From positions 59,838-123,837 of the forward strand of contig JALUUL010000046.1 of assembly GCA_027021385.1 (NCBI GenBank): a DNA stretch of 64,000 nucleotides, in the 5' to 3' direction. The stretch comes from Planctomycetota bacterium. Lineage in GTDB: Bacteria; Planctomycetota; UBA1135; GCA-002748355. The notes under the pieces were generated by a model. The model was not told where the DNA came from and made no database searches. It was given only the letters and a program-made list of their open reading frames with translations. Below are positions 3,901 through 63,801 of this stretch, piece after piece; the first letter of the stretch is position 1; each line of letters starts with the position of its first letter. The position numbers were made by a program, and so were the translations under genes.

Positions 3901-4746
3901 GTGCCGTTCACCGTGTTCGACGAGCTTCTACAACACCTCTCGACGAACCCGTACCTGGCGGTCTTCGTCCTGATGATCCTCTGCGGGTTGGGGCTCCCGA
4001 TCCCGGAGGAGATCATCCTCGTCGGAGCGGGCTACATCTCCTATCTCGGGAAGGCCGACCCCCTGGTCCTGGGGGCAACGAGCGCCGGGGCCATCCTCGC
4101 CGGCGATCTCCTCCCCTTCCTCCTCGGCCGCCTCTTCGGCCCGAAGATCCTCCGCATCCGCCTGGTCCGCACCTGGATCAGCAAGGAGAAGCTCGCCCTC
4201 TTCGACCACTGGTTCCAGCGACGGGGATGGCTGACGATCTTCGTCGCCCGCTTCATCCCCGGCATCCGGACCCCCGCATTCTTCACGGCCGGCTCGATGC
4301 GGCTCGCGATTCCGAAGTTCCTCCTGATCGACGGCGCGGGGGTCCTCTTCTCCGTCCCCCTCTCCCTCGGGCTCGGCTACCACTTCGGGGACCAGATCGA
4401 CCGGGCGATCTCCCTCGTCCACCGAACCGAGAAGGGCCTCCTGATCCTCGCCGGCGCCTCCCTCCTGATCCTGACCGGAGTGTTCTGGTATCGGATCCAC
4501 CGCCGGCGGAAGCTCCTGGGCAGCGACGTCCGCGAGGCCTTCGTCGGCCCCTCCGAACCCGGGGGGGAGGCGGATCTCACCGGGGAAGCCCGACCGGGCT
4601 CCGCCCCGGCGGAAGAAGAGACCGAGGCCCCCCCGACCCCGGAATCCCGGCTCCCGGACGAACTCGACTCCGGGGATGGGCCGGAGGCCGAGGGGGCGAG
4701 GGAACTCCCCCGCGCGGTCCCCCCGGCCGACCCCTCCTCCACCTGA
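3901..4746 (+). CDS. DedA family membrane protein
   Basis: GTG start; GLGLPIPEEIILVGAGYISYLG...FVARFIPGIRTPAFFTAGSMRL is DedA-like; acidic Pro-rich C-terminal tail. Confidence 0.88.
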   Translation: MPFTVFDELLQHLSTNPYLAVFVLMILCGLGLPIPEEIILVGAGYISYLGKADPLVLGATSAGAILAGDLLPFLLGRLFGPKILRIRLVRTWISKEKLALFDHWFQRRGWLTIFVARFIPGIRTPAFFTAGSMRLAIPKFLLIDGAGVLFSVPLSLGLGYHFGDQIDRAISLVHRTEKGLLILAGASLLILTGVFWYRIHRRRKLLGSDVREAFVGPSEPGGEADLTGEARPGSAPAEEETEAPPTPESRLPDELDSGDGPEAEGARELPRAVPPADPSST

Positions 4747-59261: not shown

Positions 59262-61046
59262 TCACTGGCCGGGGTAGAGGGTGACTCCGTTCGTCCCGGC
59301 GAGCCCGTTCTTCTTCAGGTAGAAGGTCTGCACCTCGATCTCGACCCCCTTCAGCGAGGGAGTGTTCGGGATCTTGCCGACCGTGATCTTCCAGGTCTTG
59401 CCGTTCACGGTGCCGACATAGGTGATCGCCGGCTTCTTGAGATCGGGGTAGATATCGCAGGTCATGAAGGTCGGCGGACTCCCGTCCCGTTGTCCGATGA
59501 TCGTGACCGTGATCGTCGGCGCCCCGGGTCCGACGGGAGCCCCCTCCCCCCGCAACTCGAGGAATCCGTCGAGGACCGGATCGCTCGTCGTAAGACGCGG
59601 CTCGGCCCCCGTCCCCCCGCAACCCCGGCCGTGCGGCATGGTCACCGCGCCCGGATCGAGGACGTAGGGTTCTTTTCCCGTGGTCGCCGTGGCCCCAGCC
59701 AAGAACACTTTTCCGCCAATGGCGAGGAACAGGTCCGGCGCGAAGGAGCCCGGCCCCGGGACGTAATCCTTGAACATCCGTGTCCCCTTGGCCGTGTAGT
59801 CCGAGCGCCAGACCTCCCTCCCCGCCCTCCCGTTCAGGAGGCCGCCCTGGAACCACAAATAGCGGTCTCCGAGAGCCAGATAACTATCGGGACGGTCGGT
59901 GGTCAGCTTGGTCAGAGTCGGACTCCCATTGGTCATGGCCAACGAGTACAGACCTCGGATCGTGGGCGGAGACAAGGGGCTGATGATCCGGAACACGATG
60001 CCCCGCGGCGTCGGAAGGAAATCTTCCGGCCAGGATCCCTTGTAGCCTGGGGCGATGTCGGTCAGCCGCCTCGTCGAAGCGGGGGTCCCACGCGTGGCCC
60101 AGACCTCCTGACCGTTCAATCTCGTCGAGGTCGCGAAAAAGACTTCTTCGCCGGATCCGACGAAACCGCGCACATCCCCTCGCCAGAGGCCTTGACTCCA
60201 AGTCCTGCGGGTCGGTTCGATCCCCGGAGACGTGTCCTTCAACATCATGGTTCCTCGAGCCGTTCCATCGGAGACCCAGGGCTCGAATCCATGCTTCCCG
60301 TCGTGGGCGAAGAAGTAACACCGCCCTCGGTAAACCGTGAGATCCTGGATGAGGCTCTCCCTCGAACCCGGCCAGATGTCCTTCACGAGCTTCGTTCCGG
60401 CCGGAGTCATGTCGGTAATGACGAGTTCCTGGCCGTATCCGCTCATCAGTTTCTTGCAGATCACACGGTTCCCGAAGTTCCTCAAGTAGTAGATGTTTCG
60501 AATCCCGGTCGAGCGGGTTCCCGAGGCCGTGCCGTCGGTCTCGAAGAGCAAGGTGGGATAGAGGTGGAAGTAGAGTTTTCCCCGGTAGTAGAGGGGGCGG
60601 TATGGGCCTTTCGGCAGATAGGAGTAAGACCATGTGCTTCCCGAACCCGGCGTCAGGTCCTTGACGAGCCAGACCTTCAGACCGTCGAAGGCCCAAAGTT
60701 CCCGCCCCGTCTTCGGCTCCGTCGCGAGGAAGTAGAGGATGCTCGGGGTTTTCGCGAACAACCTGGGCGAACTCCCCTGAGTTCCGGGATTGATGTCCAG
60801 GAGCAAACGGGTCCCCGCCGGGGTGCCGTCGGAAATGAACAGCTCCGGCCCCGTGGCGGGCGTGGTGGCCCGGAACACGAATTTCCCGCGGAACTCCGTC
60901 CAGAAATCGCCCCCGAGGGAGGTGATGGACGAGCCCTTCCCGGGATTGAGGTCCTTGAGAAGCGTGATCTGAGCCGGGAGCGTGGAACCGAGCCAGAGGG
61001 ACGCGCAGGGGACAAGAGCAAGGAAACGCAGAACGAATGAGGGCAT
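59262..61046 (-). CDS. Secreted ELWxxDGT repeat protein with C-terminal module
   Basis: MPSFVLRFLALVPCASLWLGSTLPAQITLLKDLNPG...ELFISDGTPAGTRLLLDINPG...EPWVSDGTARGTMMLKDTSPG; C-terminal GKIPNTPSLKGVEIEVQTFYLKKNGLAGTNGVTLYPGQ. Confidence 0.88.
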   Translation of the reverse strand: MPSFVLRFLALVPCASLWLGSTLPAQITLLKDLNPGKGSSITSLGGDFWTEFRGKFVFRATTPATGPELFISDGTPAGTRLLLDINPGTQGSSPRLFAKTPSILYFLATEPKTGRELWAFDGLKVWLVKDLTPGSGSTWSYSYLPKGPYRPLYYRGKLYFHLYPTLLFETDGTASGTRSTGIRNIYYLRNFGNRVICKKLMSGYGQELVITDMTPAGTKLVKDIWPGSRESLIQDLTVYRGRCYFFAHDGKHGFEPWVSDGTARGTMMLKDTSPGIEPTRRTWSQGLWRGDVRGFVGSGEEVFFATSTRLNGQEVWATRGTPASTRRLTDIAPGYKGSWPEDFLPTPRGIVFRIISPLSPPTIRGLYSLAMTNGSPTLTKLTTDRPDSYLALGDRYLWFQGGLLNGRAGREVWRSDYTAKGTRMFKDYVPGPGSFAPDLFLAIGGKVFLAGATATTGKEPYVLDPGAVTMPHGRGCGGTGAEPRLTTSDPVLDGFLELRGEGAPVGPGAPTITVTIIGQRDGSPPTFMTCDIYPDLKKPAITYVGTVNGKTWKITVGKIPNTPSLKGVEIEVQTFYLKKNGLAGTNGVTLYPGQ

Positions 61047-61201
61047 GGCGATCATGGAAATATATTGCGGACCAATCGCAAGCCCGGCAATCCCCCGACC
61101 CGGCTCCCCTCGAGTTCCCCTCCAGCCCTGAGCCTTCCGGAAGGGGCGAAGCCCGGACCCCGGCCCCATCGCATTTCCACCCGGGCGGATTGCCCGGACT
61201 A

Positions 61202-61252
61202 ACATACGGCTTTTTTTACGTATGTCGTTTTCTACGTACGTCGATTTTGACA
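61202..61252. promoter_or_regulatory. AT-rich operator-like array upstream of ATPase pair
   Basis: ACATACG-N10-CGTATGT inverted repeat, then TCTACGTACGTCGATTTTGACA; ACGTAYGTCG units at 61218 and 61234. Confidence 0.5.
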
Positions 61253-61330
61253 GAATGCCCTCGGAGGCGGCGGCGGCCGGCTCCCCCGCCGGGCGGGCGG
61301 GATCCGACACCCCACGCGAGGGAGGGGAAG

Positions 61331-62539
61331 ATGCGCGCGAATCCGGGAGGGATGATCGCCCCGGCCGAGGTCGTCGGACGGGACCGCTTGATCGCCGAAC
61401 TCTGGAGGGTCCTCGAACAGCGGAGCCTCGTTCTCGACGCCGAGCGCCGGATCGGCAAGACCTGCATGATCCGGAAGATGACCGCGGAACCGCCCCCCGG
61501 CGTCGTCGCGGTCTACCGCGACCTCGAGGGGATGAGGACCCCGCAGGAGTTCGCCGAATCCGTCGTGCGCGACGGCCTGAACCATCTCGGCCGCATCGGG
61601 CGCACCGCCTGGAAGCTGAAACGATGGGCCGGGAAGCTCGGGGGCGCCGAGCTGAAGGGCAAGTTCAAGCTCCCCGAGGACCTCGGCCCGCACTGGAAGG
61701 CTCTCCTCGAGGAGTTCTGCTCCGCGCTCTGCGAGGGGCGGGAGGAGCGCGTCCTGTTCTTCTGGGACGAGGTCCCGCTGATGCTCCAGAATTTCATGCG
61801 GCGCGACGGCGGGGCGGAGGCGATGGAGCTGCTCGATCTCCTGCGCTCCCTCCGGCAGACGACCCCCAATCTCAGGATGGTCTTCACCGGTTCGATCGGG
61901 ATCGCGAACCTGATCGACCGCCTGCACGAGACCGGCCATCCCGGGGACCCGACGAACGACATGGCCCAGGTCGACGTGCCGCCCCTCGCCCACGTCCACG
62001 CGGTCCGCCTCGCCCACGCGCTCTTCCTCGGCGAGGGCCTGCTCCCCGAGGGGAGCCCCCCCGACGCGGCCTGCGAACTCCTGGCGGCCGAAACGGACGG
62101 CGTCCCCTACTACATCCACCACCTCGTCGACCGCCTCGCGATCGAGAAGGAACGCCCGACGACCGCCCGCATCCGCGCGCTGATCGAGCGGGCTCTCCGC
62201 GACCCCGCCGACCCCTGGCACCTCGCCCACTTCCGGGAACGCCTGCTTCCCTCCTACGGGCCGGCCCGGGGGCCGCTCGCGCGCCGCGTCCTCGACCTCC
62301 TCGCCTTCGAGGACGACCTCTGCGGGTTCGCGCGGCTCGCGAACCTCCTCGCGGGGACCGGCGCGCCGGTGCCCGCCGACGATCTCCGCCCGATGCTGCG
62401 CGCCCTGACGCGCGACCACTACCTGATCCGCGAGGAAGGCTGGCGCTTCCGCTTCCCGCTCGTGCAGCGATGGTGGCGGCGCCGGCTCGAGGGCCTGGAG
62501 TCGCCGCGTCCGGCCGCGACCCGGGAGGACGGCGCGTGA
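61331..62539 (+). CDS. P-loop ATPase, archaeal-ATPase/STAND-like
   Basis: VVGRDRLIAELWRVLEQRSLVLDAERRIGKTCMIRKM (variant Walker A), RVLFFWDEVPLML (Walker B), MVFTGSIGIANLI, C-terminal helical region. Confidence 0.8.
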   Translation: MRANPGGMIAPAEVVGRDRLIAELWRVLEQRSLVLDAERRIGKTCMIRKMTAEPPPGVVAVYRDLEGMRTPQEFAESVVRDGLNHLGRIGRTAWKLKRWAGKLGGAELKGKFKLPEDLGPHWKALLEEFCSALCEGREERVLFFWDEVPLMLQNFMRRDGGAEAMELLDLLRSLRQTTPNLRMVFTGSIGIANLIDRLHETGHPGDPTNDMAQVDVPPLAHVHAVRLAHALFLGEGLLPEGSPPDAACELLAAETDGVPYYIHHLVDRLAIEKERPTTARIRALIERALRDPADPWHLAHFRERLLPSYGPARGPLARRVLDLLAFEDDLCGFARLANLLAGTGAPVPADDLRPMLRALTRDHYLIREEGWRFRFPLVQRWWRRRLEGLESPRPAATREDGA

Positions 62540-63585
62540 CGGCGGCGCGATCCCTCCCCTTCGTCCACGATCCGGCGCGGACCGACGGCCGCCTGCTGGA
62601 GCGGCTCTCCCTGTTCCCCGACGGGCTCCTCGACCGCCTCCGGGCCCGCCTCGAGGAAGGCGCGGGCGGAGGCGCGCTTCCGCGGGACCTGATCGCCGCC
62701 CCCGGAGGCCGGGGCAAGAGCCACCTCTGCGCCCGCCTCGCCCTCCGGCCGGCGGACCTCCCCTGTCCGGCGCGACGTCCCCGGCTCTCCCCGAGGGCGG
62801 AGCACGACTTCGATCGCTTCGAGTCCGAAGTCCTCGCGGGGCTCGAGCCCCCCGTCCTCCTGGTCCTCGACGATCTCGACCTCCTCCTCGCGCGCTGGGG
62901 GGCCCGAGGCCGGAAGGCCTTCCGCGCGGTCCTCCAGGGACTCCCCGCGCTCGGCGTCCTCGCGACGACCCGCCCGAGGGTCGGAGGCCCGGGTCTCCCC
63001 TCCTTCTTCGCCGACCGGGGCGAGGCCTTTTTCGGTTTCTTCCGGGTCGAGGTCCTCGAGGACCCGAGCCCCGAGGCCTTCGTCGACTGGTTCCTCGAGG
63101 CCTTCCGCGTCTCGGCCCCCGGCCCGGCGACGGCCCGGACCCGCGCCCTCGAGGCCTGGCTGGCCGTCGGCTCGGGGAGGGACCTCCTTCGCGAGACCTA
63201 CGCCGCCCGGGGAGCGGACCTCCGCTTCCACCTCCTCCTGGCCCGCCATCTACCCCTCGTCTGCGGGGGAGCGAGACACGGGGACCTGCGCGCCGCCTTC
63301 CTCGAGGCCCTCGCCCAGGCCGAGGACCTCTGCGGCCCCCTCCGGACCCTGGAGCGGGCCGACCTCTCCCCGCAGCAAGGCCTGATCCTCCGCATCCTCG
63401 AGACCTCCCCCGAGGCCCTGACGGTCACCCGCATCGCCGAACTCGCCGGGGTCACGCACCAGACGGCCTCGTCCCAGCTCCGCATCCTCCGGCAGCAGGG
63501 TTTCGCGACCGCGGCGCGGAAGGGGCGCCATTCCTACTACTCCACGAACAGGGCCTCCAGGGGAGTCCCCGCATCCCGAGGGTGA
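62536..63585 (+). CDS. P-loop ATPase with C-terminal winged-helix domain
   Basis: GTG start overlapping upstream TGA; LIAAPGGRGKSHLCARLAL, PVLLVLDDLDLLLARW, C-terminal ILRILETSPEALTVTRIAELAGVTHQTASSQLRILRQQGFATAARKGRHSYY. Confidence 0.78.
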   Translation: MTAARSLPFVHDPARTDGRLLERLSLFPDGLLDRLRARLEEGAGGGALPRDLIAAPGGRGKSHLCARLALRPADLPCPARRPRLSPRAEHDFDRFESEVLAGLEPPVLLVLDDLDLLLARWGARGRKAFRAVLQGLPALGVLATTRPRVGGPGLPSFFADRGEAFFGFFRVEVLEDPSPEAFVDWFLEAFRVSAPGPATARTRALEAWLAVGSGRDLLRETYAARGADLRFHLLLARHLPLVCGGARHGDLRAAFLEALAQAEDLCGPLRTLERADLSPQQGLILRILETSPEALTVTRIAELAGVTHQTASSQLRILRQQGFATAARKGRHSYYSTNRASRGVPASRG

Positions 63586-63588
63586 ACG

Positions 63589-63801
63589 ATGGACGACTCG
63601 ACCTTTCTCCTCCTCACCCTCCTCTGGTCCTCGATCGGGACGGGCTACTTCATCTACGGCAAGAAGCAACGCCGCGCCCCCGCCCTCCTCGCCGGCGTCG
63701 CCCTCTGCCTCTTTCCCTACTTCCTCACGAATCCCTGGGCCAACCTCGGCGTCGGCCTCCTCCTGACCGCCGCCCCCTTCGCCCTCGCCTCGATCCTCTG
63801 A
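63589..63801 (+). CDS. Small membrane protein (70 aa), unknown function
   Basis: Two hydrophobic segments; starts 4 nt after previous stop. Confidence 0.6.
   Translation: MDDSTFLLLTLLWSSIGTGYFIYGKKQRRAPALLAGVALCLFPYFLTNPWANLGVGLLLTAAPFALASIL

Follow-up and report, generated by a model that had tools for sequence, protein, structure and literature searches.

In toxin–antitoxin modules, two overlapping genes are autoregulated by operator-bound self-repression. The BrxR/CapW WYL regulators of defence islands are repressors that act on inverted repeats upstream of their operon and are linked to defence genes (PMC9122601), and the ORC/Cdc6-like ATPases of BREX and related systems combine an ORC/STAND-type NTPase with a winged helix-turn-helix (wHTH) domain (PMC12839542). 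Here, we analysed a pair of genes, g1 and g2, in a 64-kb stretch of DNA, referred to below as the window. Comparison with related sequences makes it fairly likely (probability ≈0.6) that they are a copy of a STAND-type NTPase module of two genes, which is mobile and self-contained and represses itself. The two-gene module is widespread in bacteria yet unnamed. An earlier note, made from the window sequence alone, had not recognised it as a named system, in agreement with our finding that the pair is not covered by any model of PADLOC, NCBIfam or Pfam. The PADLOC v2 system models matched g1 and g2 only at the level of the wHTH or the P-loop, and no named two-ATPase/wHTH module was found in the open-access literature. 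Membership of the ORC/Cdc6 initiator or TniB/IstB families was considered and rejected, because the matches were weak and did not reach the curated family scores.

The first gene, g1 (61331..62539, plus strand), runs from an ATG start to a TGA stop and encodes the partner ATPase of 402 amino acids. Profile matches to PDB entries 2fna (E = 1.7e-8) and 2qen support its earlier description as archaeal-ATPase/STAND-like. The match of AAA_22 to the window g1 was weak and fell under the Pfam cut-off, which the orthologues L013 and L029 exceeded. In an alignment of 15 homologues, the invariant residues are R17, R39-R40, G42-K43, D146-E147, R172, S188 and P259; these include the RR and GK of the Walker A motif, ERRIGKT (61442..61462, plus strand), and the acidic pair D146-E147 of Walker B (61766..61771, plus strand). 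The C-terminal end of g1 is a helical, winged-helix-like region.

The second gene, g2 (62536..63585, plus strand; GTG start, TGA stop), encodes a P-loop NTPase with a winged helix (349 amino acids; profile match 2.9e-71). The open reading frames were checked, and both the coordinates and the GTGA overlap of g1 and g2 were the same as previously claimed. The N-terminal P-loop domain of g2 matched AAA_16, ATPase_2 and NACHT with weak to moderate scores, the NACHT match being weak in the window g2, and its Walker A motif, APGGRGKS (62698..62721, plus strand), has a GxGK that is invariant in 10 homologues. Walker A and B motifs with conserved residues are thus present in the g1 and g2 alignments, as in STAND proteins and archaeal ATPase_2. 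The wHTH (63361..63555, plus strand) had been called ArsR/MarR-like, and its matches are indeed of this kind: MarR_2 (E = 4.9e-8) scored above the Pfam cut-off, and SmtB was among the other matches. Against NCBIfam, the wHTH stayed under the curated metalloregulator cut-off. AlphaFold models built on alignments of two rows were of low quality, with a mean pLDDT of 47.5 for g1 and 52.3 for g2, and the wHTH of g2 was the only part modelled with usable confidence. Most g2 orthologues carry a C-terminal tail after the wHTH, often with TPR repeats, as seen by alignment and Pfam. The window g2 lacks this tail and terminates just past the wHTH, and its GGNPR motif is altered; with the tail gone and the motif changed, the window copy may have been reduced or be in decay. 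No effector domain was recognised by Pfam in g1, g2 or the tails, including 10 g2 and 10 g1 homologues.

A third gene, g3 (63589..63801, plus strand), starts with an ATG 3 nt past g2 and encodes a lineage-specific hydrophobic protein of 70 amino acids. All three genes look coding, because the GC content at third positions is 0.93, 0.91 and 0.94 for g1, g2 and g3, respectively. No Pfam or PADLOC family matched g3, no homologue was found among the related loci or 3' of g2 elsewhere, and the genes 3' of g2 vary by locus. The conserved trio with a membrane output that had been proposed was therefore dropped, since g3 does not recur. The window contig stops 199 nt past g3.

Upstream of g1 is an operator-like array (61202..61243, plus strand), identified in the sequence and by a pattern search against shuffled sequences. 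The earlier note had described it as ACATACG-N10-CGTATGT plus ACGTACGT. Both elements are present, and are better described as three 8-bp sites, ACATACGG (61202-61209), ACGTATGT (61218-61225) and ACGTACGT (61234-61241), all on the plus strand and separated by steps of exactly 16 bp. The phased pattern occurred in the 64-kb window only at the array and in none of 100 shuffles. In the 3.69-Mb genome, it again matched only the array at ≤2 mismatches; a reversed control pattern had two genome matches at this tolerance, so the zero-mismatch matches of the array carry the weight. The phasing was significant (z = 3.8 for the window array and z = 25 for its operator class), whereas the 7-bp inverted repeat by itself was not (p = 0.23), and a lag-16 periodicity was common to the window, L013, L029, L030 and L040. 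No sigma-70-like promoter was recognised at the window copy. An ELWxxDGT-repeat secreted-type protein (59262-61310, minus strand; E = 3e-81) is encoded divergently from the module; the mechanical start of its open reading frame spans the array, and the gene itself probably begins near 61046.

Repeated dyads precede g1 in nearly every locus. The absence of the array upstream of orthologues, named in advance as a result that would count against the proposal, was looked for, and dyad arrays were found in nearly all of them. The median dyad z was 3.2 upstream of g1 (40 loci) and −0.04 upstream of 137 other genes from the same loci (Mann–Whitney p = 8e-12). The period depended on the class: 16 bp, with z about 25, for ACGTACGT and for GAATTTATTC, 15 bp for CCAACA and 27–28 bp for TTGACAAT. 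Sigma-70-like sites occurred in 18 of the 40 upstream regions, compared to 7.1 expected, often with the operator in the spacer. Tandem GTAGAAAACGCCTCCAGGCGTTTT-type repeats lie upstream of the module in L012 (8700-8900).

Across these alignments, the operator sequence tracks the recognition helix of g2. The recognition helix of the window g2, THQTASSQLRILRQ (63454..63495, plus strand), belongs to the THQ class, which goes with the ACGTACGT operator. In other loci, THQTA-type helices are likewise paired with ACGTACGT, xNxTS-type helices with CCAACA...TGTTGG, xTSISPQLKRL with GAATTTATTC, ESK-type helices with TTGACAAT... and LPxG[ST]-type helices with TATAC...GTATA. ACGTAC was found upstream in 6/6 THQ-class loci, of which five have a THQ-type helix and the sixth is the remnant L040, and in 0 of the other 37; as most of this class belongs to a single clade, these are not six independent events. 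Helix similarity predicted operator similarity beyond ATPase identity, with a modest partial Mantel r of 0.18 (p = 0.001). Furthermore, a g2-only locus on a Sphingobium plasmid, which had been left out when the classes were defined, has a VNVNTASAMLGRL helix and a CCAACA-type array, as predicted by the xNxTS rule. In ten genomes (that of the window, G382 and eight others), the phased array is found solely at its own pair; the generic pattern CAACA-N4-YGTTG was too loose for uniqueness testing. Because the array stands only before its own pair in these genomes, the comparison suggests that g2 most likely represses its own operon and has no array target elsewhere. Thus, of the self-regulated NTPase switch with membrane output proposed in the earlier note, the self-regulation is supported by the comparative evidence, while the membrane output is not supported, g3 not being conserved.

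Relatives of g1 were detected in 13/392 genomes of its own phylum and 29/396 genomes of a second phylum, that of L013, a Bacteroidetes record. In almost every fetched locus with enough sequence, g2 directly follows g1 in both phyla, usually with overlapping genes, although related loci are non-independent samples. The exceptions are contig ends (L008, L095), L040, in which a deletion has left a remnant, and L097–L099, whose three g1-like genes are distant. A lack of conservation of the pair had also been named as a refuting outcome; we found it conserved in two phyla. The two phyla are intermixed in the g1 tree. A minimum of 5 label changes is required, some of which could be explained by MAG binning errors. 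A plasmid search with the window g1 gave no match, and more central g1 sequences did give matches on plasmids. No relatives were found in phages, and a scan of viral contigs with the window g1 was negative. L040 holds a remnant (minus strand, ~4000-4700) in which a THQ-type array leads straight into the sequence for the C-terminal part of g1; the remainder of that gene and the NTPase-wHTH portion of g2 are missing. The g1 gene is split or truncated in L037 and L039, and g2 is interrupted in L106, a Methylomonas plasmid; such broken copies are a sign that the module is dispensable. Two Mycobacterium plasmids, L100 (5947-7116) and L101 (5941-7092), carry g2-like NTPase-wHTH genes without g1; in L101, this gene overlaps one for a Ser/Thr kinase and is preceded by the perfect dyad ATACAGCA-TTAG-TGCTGTAT.

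Two Moraxella plasmids share a 2.8-kb block that is 94.5% identical (L104 6746-9544; L107 3577-6375), starting ≈250 bp upstream of g1, ending shortly after the wHTH region of g2 and comprising the array, g1 and the g2 core. Outside this block, the g2 tails, flanks and defence-type neighbours differ. Since the plasmids are alike only in the array, in g1 and in the portion of g2 for the NTPase and wHTH, these elements mark the mobile unit. The patchy distribution, the mixing of phyla in the tree and the scarcity of recurrent neighbours indicate that the module is mobile.

On plasmids, the pair is flanked by defence genes: qatD (Qat), PRTase-CE and ORC-CDC6-like genes on the Moraxella plasmid pNP7-2, and Pycsar, TIR and AbiE genes on a Sphingobium plasmid. 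On pSKB0120-2, g2 is followed by an Avs4/PD-Lambda-4-like gene, the two overlapping by 17 nt. On chromosomes, the neighbours are a mixture of many housekeeping genes and a few of defence type, and no neighbour of the pair recurs outside one syntenic clade. The plasmid neighbours, and the overlapping gene of pSKB0120-2 in particular, would suit a pair that regulates neighbouring defence genes as BrxR/CapW WYL regulators do, repressing a shared promoter from which read-through expresses downstream cargo. We consider this unlikely: a conserved cargo gene was sought across the loci but not found, the genes after g2 are often on the opposite strand, the array is confined to the pair in the ten genomes, and a simple repressor would not need two ATPases.

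Weak ORC-CDC6-like, TniB and IstB similarities and the AT-rich phased repeats might also suggest a replication, partition or transposition module, the array being an origin or an element end. With no transposase, second array or recurrent partner found, and with the array apparently overlapping a promoter, such a role is very improbable. Equally, the ArsR/SmtB-type wHTH might belong to a regulator of the ordinary stress- or metal-responsive kind, with the P-loop domain sensing a small molecule, but its score under the curated metalloregulator cut-off, the patchy mobile distribution, the variable tails and the absence of a transporter or enzyme partner leave little room for this explanation.

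We therefore favour the self-repressing NTPase module, in which g2 would bind its own phased array and hold the g1–g2 operon down; in many relatives the array overlaps the putative −35/−10 region. The two proteins probably act as one complex, because their genes are nearly always adjacent and usually overlapping. In other copies, the fast-changing, often TPR-containing tail of g2 is the likely sensor. If the tail or the NTPase perceived a trigger, g2 would leave the array, with NTP turnover; both proteins would then be made in a burst and form an active, NTP-bound complex. As the genome contains only this one array, the module most likely does not act by controlling other genes. Its output would rather be an act of the g1–g2 complex itself, and a role in conflict with phages or plasmids is the most plausible, at about even odds. 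The module is thus possibly a conflict or immune sensor. More tentatively, it may represent a new family of immune systems whose sensor NTPase doubles as the repressor sitting on the phased array at its own promoter, such that recognition of the invader and switching on would be one event, while operator and helix co-diversify and the tail is swapped. STAND/NLR sensors need silence followed by quick expression, and a self-repressing sensor NTPase would link sensing to expression directly. With several operator/recognition-helix classes, this one family also offers natural material for studying the wHTH recognition code, and further copies can easily be traced by their unique phased array.

The module resembles toxin–antitoxin systems in its two overlapping genes and proposed self-repression at an operator, but has large NTPases and no recognised toxin domain. 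With BrxR/CapW, it has in common a putative repressor, inverted repeats upstream of the operon and a link to defence genes; however, no WYL domain was found by Pfam, NTPase domains are present, and the arrays occur only at its own pair. The ORC/Cdc6-like ATPases of BREX similarly combine an ORC/STAND-type NTPase with a wHTH, but none of their PglZ, BrxC-type or HerA partners was seen at the module loci. NLR-like STAND immune proteins (Avs, bacterial NACHT) have a comparable NTPase core and variable C-terminal repeat tail, and are likewise patchily distributed and sometimes found in defence islands; unlike these, the module has no recognised effector domain, its wHTH lies between NTPase and tail, and it has a partner ATPase. 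Finally, the archaeal ATPases (ATPase_2, PF01637; PDB 2fna, 2qen) and STAND/AAA_16/AAA_22 proteins are alike in the P-loop core, the Walker A and B and GxP-type motifs, and the helical and winged-helix-like C-terminal part. The module differs from them in having two related ATPases per operon, one of which carries an added, putatively operator-binding wHTH together with its own array.
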